DNA from: a virus
Reading direction: 5' to 3' (one strand)
IMG/VR virus record: IMGVR_UViG_3300037247_000589
Coordinates: 1-26,184 of that record
Length of the DNA: 26,184 bases
The notes below the pieces were generated by a model. That model was not told the origin of the DNA, ran no database searches, and saw only the letters and a list, made by a program, of their open reading frames with translations. Shown piece after piece: positions 14,162-25,198 of this stretch. A program made the translations under genes and the position numbers. Numbering within the stretch: position 1 is the stretch's first letter; the number at the start of each line of letters is the position of its first letter.

Positions 14162-15574
14162 ATGGAAACACCAGTACCAATAATTAAAGGCGACAAAGTA
14201 GGTGTTGAAACAGATTACCGGGACGCATTGCCCGTTAACATGTACGCTGTCGCCCATAAAATATTGGGCGCTAATGGATATATGCTTAGTTATCCAGGAT
14301 TAACACTACTTGGAACTGGTTCCGGCATTGATAGGGGAGCAAATTACATTGCAAATGAAGATTTAAAAAATCAATACCGGGTTTCCGGAACACAACTAAT
14401 CTCTGTTTCTTCTTCTGGTGCTGTTGTTGAACTTGGAAATATTTCCGGGTCTGAACAGGTTGCAATGCCACATAGTTTTAATACTCAATGTGTTATAGCT
14501 GATGGTAAAATGTTTTTGTATGATCCGACTATTGGGTTTAGAGAAGTAACTGATTCAGATCTTGGTGACCCGATTGATGCGGTTTGGGTTGATGGATATT
14601 ATTTTCTTACTGACGGAGAATTTCTTTATCACACTGACATAACGGATGAAAGTTCAATTGATCCTTTAAAATTTGCAACATCTGAATATAGTCCTGATCC
14701 TACGTTGGGATTATCTTTAACTCAAGATAATAAAGTCATTGCCTGGAACAGATATTCCATGGAATCATTCAGGAATGTGGCAAACACAGATTTTGCTTTC
14801 ATAAGACTTCCAGAAAGAACACAAAAAATAGGCATCGTGGCAACACATGCAAAATGCGAAGCCGGTCAAAAGTTTTACATAACAGGTGGAAGAAAAGAAG
14901 AAAATGTTGGAATTCATATAGTAACCATTGGTGGATCTGAAAAAGTTTCCACAAGAGAAATAGATAAAATATTATCTGAATACACAGAACCCGAACTTTC
15001 AAACATGCGGATGGAAGCAAGAACCGAAAAAGATGTAACATTTGTTATTGTCCATTTACCAAATGAAACATTGTGCTTTAATGTAACGATAGCAAAAGCA
15101 TTTGGAATAGAAACAGCATGGATGATATTAAAAACAGATGTTGCCGGGGATGCACAATACAGAGGCATAAATGGAATTTTTGATGCTCGTTCATCCAAAT
15201 GGGTTTATGGTGACAAGATAAACAGCAATATAGGCATTTTAGATAATGAAATATGTACTCATTATGATGAGATAGTTGAGTGGATTTTTTATACTCCTTT
15301 TATTAAGCTCGAAACATTTTCAATTAATAGTATTGAATTAGACACAATACCAGGATTTACAATCACAAAAGATGCAACGGTAGCATTTTCTATTACAACA
15401 AATGGTAATTTTTACGGGACTGAGAAATGGGAAATGTATGGACTTCCTCATGATTACGGAAAAAGATTCACTAAAAGAAGGCTTGGAAATGTCCGACATT
15501 GGATAGGATTTAAATTTAGGAGTGCGTCCAGATCAAGAATGGCTTTCTCAATGCTGGTGGTGAATTATGACTGA
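14162..15574 (+). CDS. DNA stabilisation / tail plug protein (P22 gp10-like)
   Basis: A 470-aa protein (P22 gp10 is 472 aa) at the conserved place after gp4. It starts METPVPIIKGDKVGVETDYR and DALPVNMYAV, typical of the gp10 opening, followed by beta-propeller repeats (YPGLTLLGTGSGIDRG, GKMFLYDP, DAVWVDGYYFLTDGEFLYHT, ITGGRKEENVGIHIVTI) and a C-terminal beta part (KRFTKRRLGNVRHWIGFKF). gp10 extends the portal channel below gp4 and holds the packaged DNA together with the needle. The ribosome site is weak (ACGGAT). The last 8 bases overlap the next gene. Confidence 0.9.
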   Translation: METPVPIIKGDKVGVETDYRDALPVNMYAVAHKILGANGYMLSYPGLTLLGTGSGIDRGANYIANEDLKNQYRVSGTQLISVSSSGAVVELGNISGSEQVAMPHSFNTQCVIADGKMFLYDPTIGFREVTDSDLGDPIDAVWVDGYYFLTDGEFLYHTDITDESSIDPLKFATSEYSPDPTLGLSLTQDNKVIAWNRYSMESFRNVANTDFAFIRLPERTQKIGIVATHAKCEAGQKFYITGGRKEENVGIHIVTIGGSEKVSTREIDKILSEYTEPELSNMRMEARTEKDVTFVIVHLPNETLCFNVTIAKAFGIETAWMILKTDVAGDAQYRGINGIFDARSSKWVYGDKINSNIGILDNEICTHYDEIVEWIFYTPFIKLETFSINSIELDTIPGFTITKDATVAFSITTNGNFYGTEKWEMYGLPHDYGKRFTKRRLGNVRHWIGFKFRSASRSRMAFSMLVVNYD

Positions 15575-16922
15575 GCCTATAAACATTGATGATATTAAAA
15601 CATATGATTTCAGTCTGTCTGAATTAAAAGAATTGACGGGCCTTCCTGATGCTTTTCTTCAAGAGTTTTTAAACCTTCTCAGGAACATTGGGGTAATAAT
15701 AGAATTTTTGAATGTTGAGATTATTCAGAGGCTTGAAGATGTTCCGACGGATTTTTTAGACGGATCAATTCCGGTTGTGAATGGTGGTTTTTTGGTGGCC
15801 GATCTCCTTGGATTTAATTATAATATAGCCACAAAAACACTACAGATAGGAACTATAAAATCAACGATTGCAACTAATTTAGTTTTATTGCCAACAACAG
15901 GTATAGTACTGGTCAACGCAGCATATGTGCCGCCAACAATTGAAAACGAAATTTCCACAAAAAAATATGTTGATGATAATGATATAATCGAAGGTGGAAC
16001 CGAAAATGGACAATTAGCCTTTTGGGACACTGACGGGTGGAAGCATACTGAAAAAACAGAACTCTTTTGGGATGATGTTAATAAAAGATTCGGTATATTA
16101 AAGGCGAATCCAACAGCAAAACTACACTTGCCAGCAGGCACAGCGGTGGAGAATACAGCACCGTTAAAGTTTTCACTTGGGATACAATTAGCAGTTGCCG
16201 AAGCTGGGGCGATTGAATATATAACAAATTTGTTTAAACTACGAGGCGGTGATGGTTTACAGATAGGTGATGATGTTAACAATACAACCATCAGCCCTTC
16301 TGGTAATATAACGATGAAGGGTACAGCCGACACAATTGATACAATTGATAAGGATTTATTAGTTGATTGCGGTACCGAAAAAACATTAAAATTAATAGAA
16401 CCTGTGTGGGATGACCTACAATTTCCTGTTTCAAGCGCAAAAGTTCCAGCTGCAAATGCCCCAACATGGGAAACGTTCACACCGAATACAAATGAGTACA
16501 GTTTTGGTATAAATGATTTTATAGATTGTCATGCAAACGAGATCCCCCATGGGTGGGTAGAGGGAACCAACGTAGATATTCATGCCCATATAACAACTAA
16601 GGCGGAGAATTCAACCGGTTCAGACAGGTTCGCTCAATTTACGGTATGGGTTGCTTATGTAAATAAGGGCGAAGTATGGCAACAAACATCGTTTACCGCT
16701 GAATTGACGATACCAGATGGAACAGCGGCGCTGCAAATATTTTATTTAGACTTGGGCGATTTAGTACTCACAAATTTTTTACTGGGGACAGAGATAAAGA
16801 TTAGAATAGGAAGAGTTGCAGCCACCGGCGGGACGGAATATCCAGGTAATATTTTTACTACTCAAGTTGGATTACATAATAAACATAATACATTAGGATC
16901 AAGGCGGGAGAATGTAAAATAA
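15567..16922 (+). CDS. Tail-needle-position protein with beta-sandwich tip
   Basis: A 451-aa protein where P22 has the needle gp26 (233 aa). The N-terminus (about 1-60) is helical with ELKELTGLPDAFLQEFLN and LLRNIGVIIEFLNVEI, a plausible trimeric coiled coil for plugging gp10. The middle is beta-rich and Asn/Thr-rich (NPTAKLHLPAGTA, GGDGLQIGDDVNNTTISPSG). The last 150 residues (EIPHGWVEGTNVDIHAHITT ... LGSRRENVK) are a C-terminal domain that occurs on many environmental phage proteins and ends in the same LGSR.E.VK pattern. Needle or short fibre cannot be decided; both would close the tail and contact the cell. It starts within the gp10-like gene. Confidence 0.65.
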   Translation: MTEPINIDDIKTYDFSLSELKELTGLPDAFLQEFLNLLRNIGVIIEFLNVEIIQRLEDVPTDFLDGSIPVVNGGFLVADLLGFNYNIATKTLQIGTIKSTIATNLVLLPTTGIVLVNAAYVPPTIENEISTKKYVDDNDIIEGGTENGQLAFWDTDGWKHTEKTELFWDDVNKRFGILKANPTAKLHLPAGTAVENTAPLKFSLGIQLAVAEAGAIEYITNLFKLRGGDGLQIGDDVNNTTISPSGNITMKGTADTIDTIDKDLLVDCGTEKTLKLIEPVWDDLQFPVSSAKVPAANAPTWETFTPNTNEYSFGINDFIDCHANEIPHGWVEGTNVDIHAHITTKAENSTGSDRFAQFTVWVAYVNKGEVWQQTSFTAELTIPDGTAALQIFYLDLGDLVLTNFLLGTEIKIRIGRVAATGGTEYPGNIFTTQVGLHNKHNTLGSRRENVK

Positions 16923-16924
16923 TT

Positions 16925-17836
16925 ATGAATGAAACAGAACTAGCAATTATAAAATCAGATTATTTCAGTGCGTTGGCTGATTATGGGATTGAGCATCAAG
17001 CAGCAATTGAGCAGACGGAAAATCATTCAGATTTAATTAAAGATAAAATAAAAGATGTTTCTGTAAAAGAGTCAGAAATAAACGGAAAAGGTCTTTTTTC
17101 AGAAAAAGATTTTAAAAGTAGTGATTTAATTTGCATTGCCAGGAAAGAAGAAAAAAGAACTCTTGCCGGAAGATATGCAAATCATTCTCCAGATCCAAAC
17201 GGAGCGTTTTTATTTCAGAATCTAAATATAATTTTAATGGCAATTAAGGATATAAAAAGGGGGGAAGAAATTACAGTTGATTACCGCCATTCTATAAATT
17301 TACAAATGCAATTGCCAAAGAATATTAATCAGTTAGTTGTGGATAATAAAGATATTTCCGTATTGACCACCGGCAGGGTTTATTTAACCAGAGTTGATGC
17401 CGCCGCATATGATTTACTTTTAAATGAAGATCACATTGACAATTTAACAGTCCGTGAAAGGGTTCTTGCTTTTGAGGCTGTTCTTTTAAAATTACCACAA
17501 GTTGAAATACCGGTAACACATGAATTTATAAAAGGATTGTACCGCAGGGAAATAACTTTCAAGAAAGGTACATTTGCAACCGGTAAAATACATAAAGAAG
17601 ACCACATGGACGTTGTTTTGTCTGGTGAAATGTTAGTTGTTTCAGATGGTGGATATAAACATATTAAAGGCCCATGTTTTTTAACTTCCATTGCTGGGAA
17701 AAAGAAAGCGGGTTATGCATTAACCGATTGTGTGTGGTGTTCATATCATCCAACAAAATGCACAACCATTGAAGATGTTGAAAAAGAATTATTTATTAAT
17801 GAATTTGATATCAATTTAGAACCTGTGGAGGTGTAG
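16925..17836 (+). CDS. SET-domain / cupin fusion protein
   Basis: A 303-aa protein with two recognisable parts. Residues about 45-122 carry the core motifs of SET-domain lysine methyltransferases: GKGLF (54-58), RYANHSPDPN (83-92, for R.INHSC.PN) with the cofactor-binding Asn86-His87, and GEEITVDY (113-120) with the expected catalytic Tyr120. The variable region between the first two motifs is very short and no post-SET cysteines follow. Residues about 195-290 form a cupin jelly roll: HEFIKGLYRREITFKKGTFA, then GKIHKEDHMDVVLSGE with His223 and His227, and His275 in SYHPT, a possible metal site. A methyltransferase acting on a virion, phage or host protein is inferred. It sits between the needle and ejection genes, where P22 has gp14. 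The ribosome site is weak (GGGAG, 14 bases away). Confidence 0.75.
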   Translation: MNETELAIIKSDYFSALADYGIEHQAAIEQTENHSDLIKDKIKDVSVKESEINGKGLFSEKDFKSSDLICIARKEEKRTLAGRYANHSPDPNGAFLFQNLNIILMAIKDIKRGEEITVDYRHSINLQMQLPKNINQLVVDNKDISVLTTGRVYLTRVDAAAYDLLLNEDHIDNLTVRERVLAFEAVLLKLPQVEIPVTHEFIKGLYRREITFKKGTFATGKIHKEDHMDVVLSGEMLVVSDGGYKHIKGPCFLTSIAGKKKAGYALTDCVWCSYHPTKCTTIEDVEKELFINEFDINLEPVEV

Positions 17837-17837
17837 A

Positions 17838-18491
17838 ATGTCTGGTATAGCTACTGCAGTTGTTGCAACCGGGGTACTTACATATTTAGGGACTCAAGAG
17901 GCTGCAAAATCAAGCAAGGAAGGTGCCGCAACTATGGCAGCCGGAGCCACATCTGCCGCTGAAGTTCAAGCCCAATCACAAAGGGAACAACTTGAATACC
18001 TTAAGGAAGTCAACGCCCTTCCTACTGAACTTCGGAACGAAGCCTTAACGCAATTGGGAGGGATGTCAGGGATTGGAGACAAAAACACACAACAAGAAAT
18101 TCTTGACCGCGCAAAGGCTTCTCCATTTTATAAGGAAATGATCGCAGAGGGTGAAGAGGGTGTTTTAAGAGGAGCTTCCGCAACTGGTGGGTTGAGGTCT
18201 GGAAATGTTCAGTCCGCATTATTCAACGAAAGGAGACAGGCCTTGCAATCTGCATACGGATCTGAAGTTTCAAACCTCCGAGGACTTGCGGGATTATCCA
18301 CGGGACAAAATCAAATAGCCCAAACTATGGGAAATATTGGGGCGACTCAGGCCGGCGGTATTTATGGTGCAGCTCAAGCCACAAGTCAAGGACAGATAGC
18401 ACAAGGGCAAATAGCGCAACAAGGGCTTCAGGGTATTGCAAACATAGGTATGCAAGGTGTTGGAATGGGAATTTATGGAGGGTATATATAA
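17838..18491 (+). CDS. Ejection protein (P22 gp7-like)
   Basis: A 217-aa Ala/Gly/Gln-rich protein. A hydrophobic N-terminus (GIATAVVATGVLTYLGT) is followed by a helical coil (AEVQAQSQREQLEYLKEVNA), then SPFYKEMIAEGEEGVLRGAS and ATGGLRSGNVQSALF, a signature of phage DNA-transfer proteins, and a Gln/Gly-rich tail ending GMGIYGGYI. P22 gp7 is 229 aa and is the first protein to leave the head into the envelope. GGAGG lies 6 bases before the ATG. No cleavage site is evident, although P22 gp7 is processed at its N-terminus. Confidence 0.75.
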   Translation: MSGIATAVVATGVLTYLGTQEAAKSSKEGAATMAAGATSAAEVQAQSQREQLEYLKEVNALPTELRNEALTQLGGMSGIGDKNTQQEILDRAKASPFYKEMIAEGEEGVLRGASATGGLRSGNVQSALFNERRQALQSAYGSEVSNLRGLAGLSTGQNQIAQTMGNIGATQAGGIYGAAQATSQGQIAQGQIAQQGLQGIANIGMQGVGMGIYGGYI

Positions 18492-18492
18492 A

Positions 18493-19608
18493 ATGGCAAA
18501 TCCATATTCAATAGATGTAGCAGATTTATCAAAAGGCTTTCAGGGTTTAATGACAGGCTTTGCAAAAAGAAGTGAATTCGAAAGAGAAAAATCCAAGAAA
18601 TCCGCTGATTTAAAAATGCGTGAAGAGGTTTTAAAATTAAGCAAAGAGGGTACGATTGAAGAGATTCAAGGATATATTGCAAAAAACCCCGGCGCAAAAA
18701 ATGTTTACAGTGAAATGGTGGGAACGAAAAACGAAATTACTAAGCAAAACAAAATAGATTCCGCTATTAGGATGATTAATGGTGAAGATCCAACGACGGT
18801 TTTAATTGAGAGTGGTGATGTTATAGAAAAACAAGGTGGCGACATTACCCAAACAATTGAAGCAATTAAACAATCAGTCGGTGATCCTAAGGGAATGGTG
18901 GAAAAAGGAAAGAGGATGTTGGCTTTTTGGGCACCTGAAAAATTAAAAGCTCTTAAATCTTTAGAGCCTGAAAAAACAACAGCGATATTAGAATGGGAAT
19001 TTGGAGAAAAAAATCCGGGCTTTCTAATTTCTCAAAAAAATAAAGCTGATTCCAAAAGAACAAAAGAAATAAGCAAGCAAAATTTTAAGGATTCTCAATC
19101 ATTGCGGAAAGAGTTCCTCTCTCAATCAAAAGATTACATGAAAGTTAGAGATTCTTATACAAGAGTTGAAGGTTCAACAAGGAACCCATCACCGGCTGGT
19201 GATTTGTCCTTGATTTTTAATTACATGAAAATGTTAGACCCTGGCTCTGTTGTGCGTGAGTCAGAATTTGCCACAGCCGCCGCAACTGGTTCATATGGTG
19301 ACAGAATTCAGTCCTCTGTTCAAAAAGTAATTAACGGTAAAAGATTAACACCAAAGCAGAGAAAGGATTTTGTTGATAAAGCTAAAGTGTTAATGGATGG
19401 TATGAAAAGGCAGCATAAAAAAAGAGAAGGAAATTATCGGGTAATTGCAAAGAAAAATAATTTATCTCCTGGTGAAGTTGTGACGGATATTAATATTCCC
19501 ATTGAAGAAGCTGAAAAAGAAATAACAGATTTCCAGGAAGGACAAACAGCAACCGGACCTGGTGGACAAAAAATGATATTTAAAAACGGAGTATGGGAGG
19601 CTTTATAA
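18493..19608 (+). CDS. Ejection protein (P22 gp20-like position)
   Basis: A 371-aa largely helical protein from the ATG at 18493, one base after the previous stop. GGAGGG lies about 11 bases upstream, and the longer frame from 18457 overlaps the gp7-like gene needlessly. The core GDLSLIFNYMKMLDPGSVVR, ESEFATAAATGSYGDRI and RLTPKQRKDFVDKAK is a signature found in many phage DNA-injection proteins. The C-terminus has GPGGQKMIFKNGVWEAL, a short tail motif (GP.G.K....G..W) that is common at the end of phage ejection proteins. P22 gp20 is 471 aa; similarity is by position and role more than by sequence. It is expected to form part of the envelope-spanning conduit. Confidence 0.75.
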   Translation: MANPYSIDVADLSKGFQGLMTGFAKRSEFEREKSKKSADLKMREEVLKLSKEGTIEEIQGYIAKNPGAKNVYSEMVGTKNEITKQNKIDSAIRMINGEDPTTVLIESGDVIEKQGGDITQTIEAIKQSVGDPKGMVEKGKRMLAFWAPEKLKALKSLEPEKTTAILEWEFGEKNPGFLISQKNKADSKRTKEISKQNFKDSQSLRKEFLSQSKDYMKVRDSYTRVEGSTRNPSPAGDLSLIFNYMKMLDPGSVVRESEFATAAATGSYGDRIQSSVQKVINGKRLTPKQRKDFVDKAKVLMDGMKRQHKKREGNYRVIAKKNNLSPGEVVTDINIPIEEAEKEITDFQEGQTATGPGGQKMIFKNGVWEAL

Positions 19609-22600: not shown

Positions 22601-23069
22601 CTCAGACGCCTTTAATAATCCTGTTATAAGTTTAGCAGCAGTTGAGCGAGAATATAAAAAGTTTCAACCAGCCATTGAAGTATTGTTCAAAAACTCTCCG
22701 GAGAAACTAAAAGCTTTAAATCAATTCAGAAAAGCTTTGAAAATAATGCAAAGAGGAAAAGCCTCACCTCTTGGCGGTGGGTCTGACTCAGCGGAAAATA
22801 TCATTCATGCAATGGCCGCCGCTTCTGGTATAGCGAAGGGAAAGATTGCAACAATCGCAAAATCTGTTATCGCTCCATTAATTAAAATGAGTGACGATCA
22901 AGTCAATTCATTATTAAACCGGGCAGCCTTTGACCCTGATTTTGCCTATACATTGCAAATGATGGCAAAAGGAAAACCCATTGATGAAGTTGAACAAAGA
23001 TTAAAAGGACACCTTGCAGCATTATTAATGCGTGGGACTATTAAAAACAAAGAACAGGAGAAAAAATAA
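19608..23069 (+). CDS. Large ejection protein with ADP-ribosyltransferase-like domain
   Basis: A 1153-aa protein at the place of P22 gp16 (609 aa). The N-terminus holds two copies of a short motif, LPPGFVLD (5-12) and LPEGFILD (54-61). Residues about 120-165 are Gly/Ala-rich and hydrophobic (PIISGIAGAGGAILGSPGGP), suited to membrane contact. Long helices follow. Residues about 550-785 form an ADP-ribosyltransferase-like domain of the phage polyvalent-protein type: VYHGS with His557, GYGFHVTTSKSSATNYA with Tyr596, a PLSKQSKSVKESLRK segment, GVKGIRYIDD (744-753) and YTVFNPSKL. The rest is helical. The start at 19608 (overlapping TAATG) is preferred over 19593 because GGGAGG lies 7 bases upstream. 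It should enter the cell with the DNA and could modify host proteins; catalysis is unproven. Confidence 0.8.
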   Translation: MGSQLPPGFVLDESEEELINQTVVDEPILQTTEQDQVLPTEEPVFESDVGSSELPEGFILDKSPESTITRDQKIDTLLSKLYSGNLSDNQMKALNELTKRGVLKGDTGEPFSVAKLSYGLRQREIRPGAKMVSEFARPIISGIAGAGGAILGSPGGPAVSALAGGGGYAMGEELADLFEEFLGLRERKSLSEELKESGMDIIEGAVMEAGGAIIGKTLGALASGGKKIAGEILKRGKPLTRAGAVKRAAEILNGKATRGSLIDKNIEEARALEELIPGLKFSRGQLTNDPEIIKFERARARMPGEVAKEQLEMLAKNAESIRDFIKKKKGPSGIEEVLDPLAAKGEIAETGVAEATGILEREAAQLEPSVTAEEIGETIRTAATGGKKAAKLKAGELFEEVPVVEIDGSSIIARIDSLSKPLSKFEDVAENIPKEFKFFKKILSESDGVVNPQDLQGLRGSLTDSLRDLQGSASPNNRKIARLTGLLKEVDQVLDTAPSVKTLGIDEKLKKMSVEEIKKEYKDILTARQLKLKTKKSVLGHVKKAIPKNTETEKVYHGSYAFEGKPSLDDYGAGEGGEGFGYGFHVTTSKSSATNYAMPSAKFKVDGKTYFGNDTEYPIIKMLNDDGYENAEKLLLKSIKKYPDSKFAKEKLSILKSLKGKDIVDSSKPSKVHVFDIPKNDLDSYLEFKLPLSKQSKSVKESLRKHDISITEQTGEDFYYDIADSMGGDFKGDKNASEFLDSIGVKGIRYIDDIAAGAEDIVGDYEKIRAKRLYNYTVFNPSKLAKDIPAVDPTYAGQKLKTARSVYKKEVIEKYSSGAVGDILKKSHGGDKVSNANIASRFFKPGFKGTESAQQFINAVGDNKNARDSLNDYIRQDLLSSATNPATGEIVDTKLKTWLLKYKPALKKLGLEDRFDSITKARNELSKAQEIKVEFDKSVASKFLKSDVDSAVKNAFSAGSKRRTAINLMRDLKGDKKAISGLQNSTIDHIIKNAETTASDAFNNPVISLAAVEREYKKFQPAIEVLFKNSPEKLKALNQFRKALKIMQRGKASPLGGGSDSAENIIHAMAAASGIAKGKIATIAKSVIAPLIKMSDDQVNSLLNRAAFDPDFAYTLQMMAKGKPIDEVEQRLKGHLAALLMRGTIKNKEQEKK

Positions 23070-25198
23070 TGTCTTCAATTGTCAAACTTTCAGTCGAATA
23101 TTTCGCAGATCCAACAAAAGGAAGACCTGTTTCAAATGGTAATATCTACATAGGTGTTGTTGACCTTGACCCTGAAATAGAATCAAATCAAAAACAAATT
23201 AGTGTTATACAAGAAGATGGTACAACTGTTGAAGTTGCGCAGCCACTAAAAACAAGCCCTGGCGGAGTCCCTGTATATAATAATTCCCCAGTGACAATTA
23301 CGGTTAGTGGTGGCTATTCATTAAAAGTAACTAATAAAAACGGATCTGAGGTTTATTATGTTCCTAAATCGTCGACACTGGCAGTCGAGGAGGTTATCAC
23401 AACGGTTGACACAATTCAAGAGTTAAGAGATTCCGATATTCATTTATTATCAAAAACAGTTAAAGTTTTAGAAGTCGGTGAGGCTGGGACTTTTGTATGG
23501 GATTCCTCTAATTTGTCGTCTGAGGTTTCAGCAGACATTAATTCAACAACGTATATAGCACTAAGTACAGATTTAACAGGAACTTCAGGAGCATGGGTCA
23601 GAGTTAATGATAGATATGATTACCCGACAGTCGACACCATACAAGACCTAAGAGATTACCCAATAAAATCAACCACAAAAACTCAGACAGTTAAAGTTTT
23701 AGGTTATTATACAAAAGGTGATGGTGGTGGAGATTTATTTCTATGGAATGTGTCTTCAACAGTAGCTGATAATGGCGGTAGTGTTATTAAATTAGCTTCT
23801 GAGCTTACAGGAAGATTCGAGTCAACTACACCAGACGAAGTTAATACGAAGAAATGGGGTTGTAGAGGGGATGAAACAACAGATGATACCGTGCGTGCTC
23901 AAGCTGCTGTAACATATTGTGTTGCAAATGCTCTTGACCTCGACGTAATAGGACTTGTAAGAATTACAGCCTCTTTAAATATAGACAGATTAGTTGATAC
24001 AGCAGCAGCAGATACTTATTTCAATATCTACACTTCAAATGGTGGTGGATTCTATGTAGACTCAGCAATCCCTATGTTTTCAACAACTATTCCTTTTACA
24101 ACTGCCCCAGTATCACAGATGATTAAATTTTCAGATATTGAATTCCAAGCATCTGATGCTGCTCTCAATGCTTTTGTCCTTGATGATGCTAAATTTTTAA
24201 GGATGCAATTTAGTAGTTGTAGTTTTCTGAAAATAAAATGCTTATATGCTCCCACTGTGTTCACTCAGTCAATTTACTTTTTTGGGTGTAATGCAAGAAG
24301 GTGGGAGGGTGTATTTTTTAGATCATTAAATGTAAGTTTTGATACTAAATTTCAAGGTAATTTAGCAGAAGCTGGAGAGACTTTTGCTGAACTTGATTTT
24401 CCTGTTGCAAATAGCTTTATTGGCAACACAATTGAAGGGATGTCAGGTACTGCAATAAAAGCACAAGGTTCTCAAGGGCTTACTGTTCATGGTAACTATT
24501 TTGAATTCAATGATATGGATATGGATACATCAGGCTCTGCATCTTTGGGAATGTCAATCCTTGGTAATTATTTTTCTCATAACGCCGGTGAACATTCAAC
24601 CGATTGGTCAATTACATGGGGACCGGCTGAGTCTGCCATGTCTGCTGGAAATTATAGTAGTCATAAATTGCATGATTTAGATTCAGCAAGTAAGGTTGCT
24701 ATTAGAGATTATGCTATTACGTTGGTTACCAATAGAGCAGGACAATCTGAAATTCCATTTAATGTACCAACATTTAATGCATATTTATCAGCCCCACAAG
24801 CGGCTGTAACGGGTGTGTGGACAAAAGTCCCAGTTAACACAGAAAATTTTGACACAAATGCCAATCTTGATGGGACTGGGAAGTTTCAACCGACAATACC
24901 AGGGTATTATAAATTTTCAGGTAAGATAAATTTCATTGTGGCAGGTGGAACAATGACATTGAGGTTGGTAGCCATTTATAAAAACGGTTCAGAATTTGAA
25001 AGATTATCGCAAAACCCATTGTCTGTTTCCGATGCTTGTTTGGAAGGAGGAGACACAGAAATATTGATGAATGGTTCAACAGACTACGTTGAACTATATG
25101 GGTATATTGTGGGCACAGGCACATTAACTTTTGGTTCTGCAACAATTCCTGAGTCAAGTAGATTTTCAGGTTCTTTTGTAAGATCAATCGGAGTATAA
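23069..25198 (+). CDS. Tailspike (P22 gp9-type head-binding domain)
   Basis: A 709-aa spike (P22 gp9 is 667). Residues 1-110 are a P22-type head-binding domain: GRPVSNGNIYIGVVDLDP, SNQKQISVIQEDG, QPLKTSPGGVPVYNN and VYYVP match gp9 closely. Two related units follow (VDTIQELRD near 113 and VDTIQDLRD near 190, each with a G..GTF.W or GGGDLFLW strand). WGCRGDETTDDTVRAQAAV (about 265) opens a right-handed beta-helix to about residue 560. Residues about 568-709 are a C1q/TNF-like jelly roll (VNTENFDTNANLDGTGKF, YYKFSGKINF, NGSTDYVELYGYI), likely a trimerising or receptor-binding tip that replaces the P22 C-terminus. Host surface glycan binding or cleavage is expected. Start overlaps the previous stop (TAATG), with GGAG upstream. 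Confidence 0.9.
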   Translation: MSSIVKLSVEYFADPTKGRPVSNGNIYIGVVDLDPEIESNQKQISVIQEDGTTVEVAQPLKTSPGGVPVYNNSPVTITVSGGYSLKVTNKNGSEVYYVPKSSTLAVEEVITTVDTIQELRDSDIHLLSKTVKVLEVGEAGTFVWDSSNLSSEVSADINSTTYIALSTDLTGTSGAWVRVNDRYDYPTVDTIQDLRDYPIKSTTKTQTVKVLGYYTKGDGGGDLFLWNVSSTVADNGGSVIKLASELTGRFESTTPDEVNTKKWGCRGDETTDDTVRAQAAVTYCVANALDLDVIGLVRITASLNIDRLVDTAAADTYFNIYTSNGGGFYVDSAIPMFSTTIPFTTAPVSQMIKFSDIEFQASDAALNAFVLDDAKFLRMQFSSCSFLKIKCLYAPTVFTQSIYFFGCNARRWEGVFFRSLNVSFDTKFQGNLAEAGETFAELDFPVANSFIGNTIEGMSGTAIKAQGSQGLTVHGNYFEFNDMDMDTSGSASLGMSILGNYFSHNAGEHSTDWSITWGPAESAMSAGNYSSHKLHDLDSASKVAIRDYAITLVTNRAGQSEIPFNVPTFNAYLSAPQAAVTGVWTKVPVNTENFDTNANLDGTGKFQPTIPGYYKFSGKINFIVAGGTMTLRLVAIYKNGSEFERLSQNPLSVSDACLEGGDTEILMNGSTDYVELYGYIVGTGTLTFGSATIPESSRFSGSFVRSIGV

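Follow-up and report, generated by a model that had tools for sequence, protein, structure and literature searches.

A SET-cupin fusion encoded at the position of P22 gp14 in a phage genome: a candidate protein-lysine methyltransferase

Most work on lysine methylation by SET domains concerns eukaryotes and the effectors that bacteria secrete. A phage gene that appears to encode a SET domain joined to a cupin, and that lies among tail and ejection genes, raises two questions: (i) whether the protein has the fold and catalytic residues of a SET methyltransferase; and (ii) what such a protein would do at this position. The gene is located in a viral contig of 26,184 nucleotides (IMG/VR record IMGVR_UViG_3300037247_000589), the whole of which was analysed and is referred to here as the window. 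The relevant features are as follows.

14162..15574, + strand: P22 gp10-like head-closure protein (PF11134, E = 1e-54; PHROG 578)
15567..16922, + strand: fibre- or needle-like protein, family unproven (all Pfam and PHROG matches at E = 0.038 or worse)
16925..17836, + strand: SET-cupin protein, 303 aa, ATG start, with the SET domain first, which is the minority order (Pfam, PHROG and locus comparison)
16925..17029, + strand: segment at the N terminus of the SET module, predicted to be helical (model helices at residues 3-19 and 25-34; pLDDT about 50-65)
17045..17287, + strand: SET core, residues 41-121 (PF00856, E = 9.6e-11; pLDDT mostly 88-97; Z 11.9-12.5 against known SET structures)
17084..17098, + strand: SET motif GxG, as GKGLF, residues 54-58
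17171..17200, + strand: SET motif RYANHSPDPN, residues 83-92, with Asn86-His87
17261..17284, + strand: SET motif GEEITVDY, residues 113-120, with the putative catalytic Tyr120
17309..17434, + strand: linker between SET and cupin, residues 129-170, of low confidence (pLDDT below 50 over 133-160)
17450..17794, + strand: cupin domain, residues 176-290 (PHROG 34170, 12032 and 24280; model; fold match)
17838..18491, + strand: P22 gp7-like DNA ejection protein (PHROG 598, E = 3.8e-11)
18457..19608, + strand: gene at the gp20 position, assigned by position only (PHROG 13634, function unknown, E = 1.9e-34)
23069..25198, + strand: tailspike with a P22 gp9-like head-binding domain (PF09008, E = 5.1e-17)

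The SET core and its catalytic residues

Judged by its profile score, the SET match of the ORF is well above chance (42.5 bits against a Pfam cut-off of 22.4), and a search with the whole record was concordant. A sequence search of the PDB matched MLL1, SMYD3 and vSET, with a best E value of 8e-5. An AlphaFold2 model built from 56 aligned sequences has a confident SET domain (residues 41-121) and a confident cupin (about 190-290); the placement of the two relative to each other is undefined, because the overall pTM is 0.47. When aligned with VIA-align, the SET model superimposes on EZH2 (Z 12.5, rmsd 2.0, 88 residues aligned), on MLL1 and SET7/9 (Z 12.4 for each) and on vSET (Z 11.9, rmsd 2.1, 76 aligned). 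The SET fold, for which a structure prediction had been proposed beforehand in a sequence-only reading of this DNA, is thus borne out by the model.

The three SET motifs lie where that reading had put them (G54-K-G-L-F58, R83-Y-A-N-H-S-P-D-P-N92 and G113-E-E-I-T-V-D-Y120). Among 86 distinct SET sequences, Gly56, Asn86, His87, Glu115 and Tyr120 are invariant and Gly54 is present in 83, with the reservation that the scan for relatives used two motif patterns, so that part of the invariance could have been selected for. All 28 members lacking the GEEITVDY-type scan pattern nevertheless keep Tyr120, and all 16 lacking the RT..GRY.N-type pattern keep Asn86-His87. Loss of Asn86, His87 and Tyr120 in homologs, which would have spoken against a SET enzyme, is accordingly not seen. 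In addition, a DYxxxL..xG... motif in the N-terminal segment also occurs just before the SET domain in cupin-SET proteins and in stand-alone SETs, as seen by eye in the alignments.

The core had also been described as unusually small, and this proves to be a property of the whole family: the spacing from Gly56 to Arg83 is 26 residues in 85/86 distinct SETs. Model residues 40-120 align with residues 1-105 of vSET, making the core about 24 residues shorter than that of the viral enzyme. The reduction concerns the SET-I insert, which is below its usual length and nearly absent; insert length varies across the superfamily and there is no strict requirement for it.

The cupin and its gene slot

The C-terminal cupin suspected from the sequence is confirmed at the level of fold, Foldseek having matched this half of the model to several cupins, TM1459 among them (E about 2e-5). 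Three PHROG families span the region, each with E = 1.5e-31 or better; neither Pfam nor a PDB profile search gave a cupin match, and the assignment comes from fold comparison only. The metal site that had been proposed fares less well. Across 115 cupins, position 223 is His in 62, Gln in 30 and Tyr in 17, and position 275 is His in 61, Tyr in 39 and Phe in 9, so that of the three histidines singled out earlier only His227 is common (93/115); His199 is common as well (106/115). No HxH pair of metal ligands is kept across the 115 sequences, and it is unlikely from these alignments that the cupin is a canonical metal enzyme. Proteins in PHROG 12032 and 24280 are called short tail fiber protein or tail fiber adhesin. 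The predicted fold, a cupin, lends these names no clear support and suggests that they may mislead.

With a gp10-like gene two positions upstream and a gp7-like gene directly downstream, starting 2 bases past the SET-cupin stop codon, the gene does occupy the position of P22 gp14, as had been supposed. Its placement between needle and ejection genes holds on the downstream side; the identity of the upstream gene as a needle is not supported by any family match. The synteny extends to other phages, the next gene being gp7-like in 38 of 58 fused loci, with gp10-like genes mostly upstream (counted by eye). No clear excess of promoters or terminators was seen in the SET-cupin region, and no tRNA genes were found there. 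The left end of the window carries, at positions 248-988 on the minus strand, a gene for a protein with a phosphoadenosine phosphosulfate reductase domain (PF01507, E = 3.7e-14). In other loci the gene immediately before the cupin often encodes a small protein (about 110-180 aa; the VvAW1 gp05 family, PHROG 1276; e.g., L008:7609-7953); no such gene was noticed in the window.

Distribution and domain order

Relatives were sought in viral contigs with an alignment of six SETs, and at least 370 were confirmed among 600 candidate stretches; the same scan with a single-protein query found none. Among the best 80 of these, 55 have the reversed order, cupin-SET, three have SET-cupin (loci L017, L037 and L051), one has neighbouring cupin and SET genes (L083) and 21 have a SET that is not fused to a cupin, a contig end truncating one of these 21. 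The window gene is a further case of the SET-cupin order. A search for the fusion elsewhere found it, in one order or the other, in 58 of the best 80 SET loci, and the view that the fusion is exceptional does not stand. Nor is a phage SET surprising in itself, since such domains are abundant in phages and have already been annotated automatically (e.g., UniProt A0A6J5PTS6); what is unusual about the window protein is that the SET comes first. In trees of the SET and the cupin, the SET-cupin order comprises four rows with long branches and weak support. In the cupin tree, some loci labelled cupin-only are truncated by a contig end (e.g., L139 and L142), which inflates the counts of changes. The linkage of cupin and SET in two domain orders suggests that the pairing itself has been kept.

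The counterpart of the cupin-SET family among the PHROGs is PHROG 34170, listed as of unknown function, and the named phages that carry cupin-SET are PH1, Rhodoferax P26218, zth2-2 and the Manatee Spring phages. Six loci came from bacterial assemblies (Comamonadaceae, Methylophaga, Pseudomonadales, Paraburkholderia, Bacillota and Lentisphaera records), and several of these are plainly phage contigs. On the Paraburkholderia ferrariae contig (L234:4093-5540), in what is apparently a prophage region, the cupin and SET genes overlap.

For the cupin, nine aligned sequences were too diverse to serve as a query, and the scan was made with gp38 of Shewanella phage X14. In X14-like phages of Shewanella the slot is occupied by a cupin alone, whereas relatives such as L120-L123 have cupin-SET. 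The cupin DNA of L119 (cupin only) and L120 (cupin-SET) is closely similar, and both run straight into gp7; L120 has SET-coding DNA between the cupin and the gp7 start that is absent from L119. These closely similar phages, differing in the SET portion, form a natural pair. Because closely similar cupins occur with and without a SET, the SET looks, from these comparisons, like an accessory to the cupin. Cupin-only phages are common, which implies that methylation would be inessential for this virion type.

Nineteen loci contain a stand-alone SET (L016:1169-2048 and 18 similar ones). They share a common neighbourhood, and their distinct SETs form one clade. For one locus, the terminase has matches in Flavobacterium and Cellulophaga phages. 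These contigs are related to phages of marine Bacteroidota, and the SET gene lies upstream of the terminase gene. The stand-alone SET follows a small gene that, in the two examples compared, gives a weak match to 2OG-Fe(II) oxygenases (E = 2.9e-4, under the Pfam cut-off).

Possible functions and related systems

There are several scenarios for how the protein may act. The one we favor, to which we give an even chance of being correct, is that SET-cupin is a late SAM-dependent protein-lysine methyltransferase encoded among the tail and ejection genes, with the cupin recruiting the substrate and a phage protein as the likely target. The protein would be expressed late, from the tail and ejection gene region; the cupin barrel would recognize or dock the substrate in place of SET-I; the SET core would transfer a methyl group from SAM to a substrate lysine; and the target would probably be a phage protein assembled in the neck, tail or ejection part of the particle. 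SAM use and lysine methylation are predicted from SET enzymology, and late expression and a phage target from gene position and domain linkage only. The adaptor role of the cupin is suggested by the fusion and by the reduced core. The SET-I insert normally contributes to the substrate groove, and in a core with nearly all of it missing, substrate recognition or docking would most likely be given by the cupin barrel. Of the earlier interpretation, the SET fold with all its catalytic motif residues, the cupin fusion and the gp14 position are retained, and the conserved histidine metal site is given up. Relatives are encoded at the same position in many environmental phages, from which it appears that a protein is chemically modified as the virions of these phages are assembled. 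A comparison of gp7 homologs from SET-carrying and SET-lacking phages, which ignored kinship, gave no SET-linked lysine (the best column had 30% vs 0%).

A second scenario is that the protein is directed at the host: its target would be a host protein, methylated either at a late stage of infection or once the enzyme has been delivered together with the ejection proteins, and the cupin would bind that host factor. Secreted bacterial SET enzymes are known to target host chromatin (reviewed in PMC10117894), the gene adjoins the ejection genes, and the presence or absence of the SET beside closely similar cupins is a pattern often seen for host-interaction genes. The slot beside gp7 is, however, retained across divergent P22-like phages, which fits a role in the virion better, and we consider a host effector unlikely. 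A third scenario is a virion-associated structural protein: the cupin would belong to the tail as a minor component, and the SET would serve for binding, without methyl transfer. The tail-fibre names given by PHROGs to cupin-only relatives and the frequency of the cupin alone in the slot agree with this; but the invariant Asn86, His87 and Tyr120 would be needless in a dead binding module, and the X14 paper contains no virion proteomics for its cupin and no mention of mass spectrometry or SDS-PAGE (PMC9011153). A purely structural role is accordingly rather improbable in our estimation. Finally, a two-step modification in which the cupin is a catalytic, metal oxygenase-like domain acting on the same substrate as the SET would be in keeping with the oxygenase-like gene before the stand-alone SETs, but it is very improbable given that the candidate metal-ligand positions vary (His223 and His275 above) and that hhalign shows no relation of the 2OG-like family to the cupin.

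The same cupin family also has neighbours of another enzyme class. A gene for a GNAT acetyltransferase directly precedes a cupin gene of this family in Bordetella phage BPP-1, in MW202722 and in two viral contigs. P22 gp14 itself (L010:912-1364), which holds the slot between needle and gp7 in P22, belongs to DUF2824 (PF11039), its annotation going no further than a role in head assembly or morphogenesis. Its model (pLDDT 84.9) aligns with GNAT enzymes with Z 16.5, rmsd 2.2 and 141 residues aligned (Foldseek E = 1e-8), and suggests that gp14 has a GNAT fold, an assignment of predicted fold only. The likeness needed a structure model to be seen, hhalign of P22 gp14 against the BPP-1-type GNATs having given nothing (probability 0.2%), and hhalign likewise found no relation of the cupin to gp14, to the GNATs or to the 2OG-like protein. 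The acetyl-CoA motif Q/R-x-x-G-x-G/A is retained in the BPP-1 and MW202722 GNATs and is absent from P22 gp14, which has IRGFSKEIG at that place, and from phiSG1, which has FRGRYALEG. The phiSG1-type relatives of gp14 in DUF2824 (L149 and L241) share the modelled GNAT fold and are without the motif. Because P22 gp14 lacks the usual motif, some phages may have no active enzyme in the slot. We tentatively raise the idea, which we think has a somewhat less than even chance, that in short-tailed phages one late-gene position next to the ejection genes is reserved for protein-modifying enzymes, with a SET methyltransferase, a GNAT-type protein or neither in it; the cupin would be the shared substrate adaptor, and lysine methylation or acetylation would tune virion assembly or genome ejection.

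A keyword search of 5.39 million open-access papers gave no description of a phage SET-cupin; two matches concerned immunoglobulin set domains and were rejected. Within that scope, the SET/cupin fusion family appears to be undescribed, as do its slot and the connection with GNAT-type neighbours. A large family of phage SETs at one virion slot, present or absent beside similar cupins, would offer a natural system for studying the role of lysine methylation in a virus particle, and an enzyme-like fold is suggested for P22 gp14.

Among known systems, the vSET protein of PBCV-1 (A612L, an H3K27 methyltransferase; PDB 3kma/1n3j) resembles the phage protein as a minimal viral SET with the same fold and core motifs, and the two match in sequence with E = 0.0034; it differs in being a chlorovirus protein with no cupin and a longer core. 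Vibrio phage VvAW1 gp04 and Shewanella phage X14 gp38 (PHROG 12032/24280) share the cupin and the slot, but have no SET domain. In the bbp24-bbp23 pair of BPP-1, a protein-modifying enzyme class is again paired with the same cupin, although the enzyme is a GNAT in a separate gene and the pair sits between terminase and portal. P22 gp14 differs from the window protein in its predicted GNAT fold, its degenerate acetyl-CoA motif and its lack of both cupin and SET. The PHROG 34170 proteins (Pseudoalteromonas phage PH1 ANY29560, Rhodoferax phage P26218 gp30, zth2-2 and MW202744 UOF81456) are hypothetical or unannotated, except UOF81456, which is named after the PBCV-1 enzyme; their domain order is reversed, but they consist of the same two domains as the window protein, and the annotated ones also lie ahead of the ejection genes in the same gene neighbourhood.
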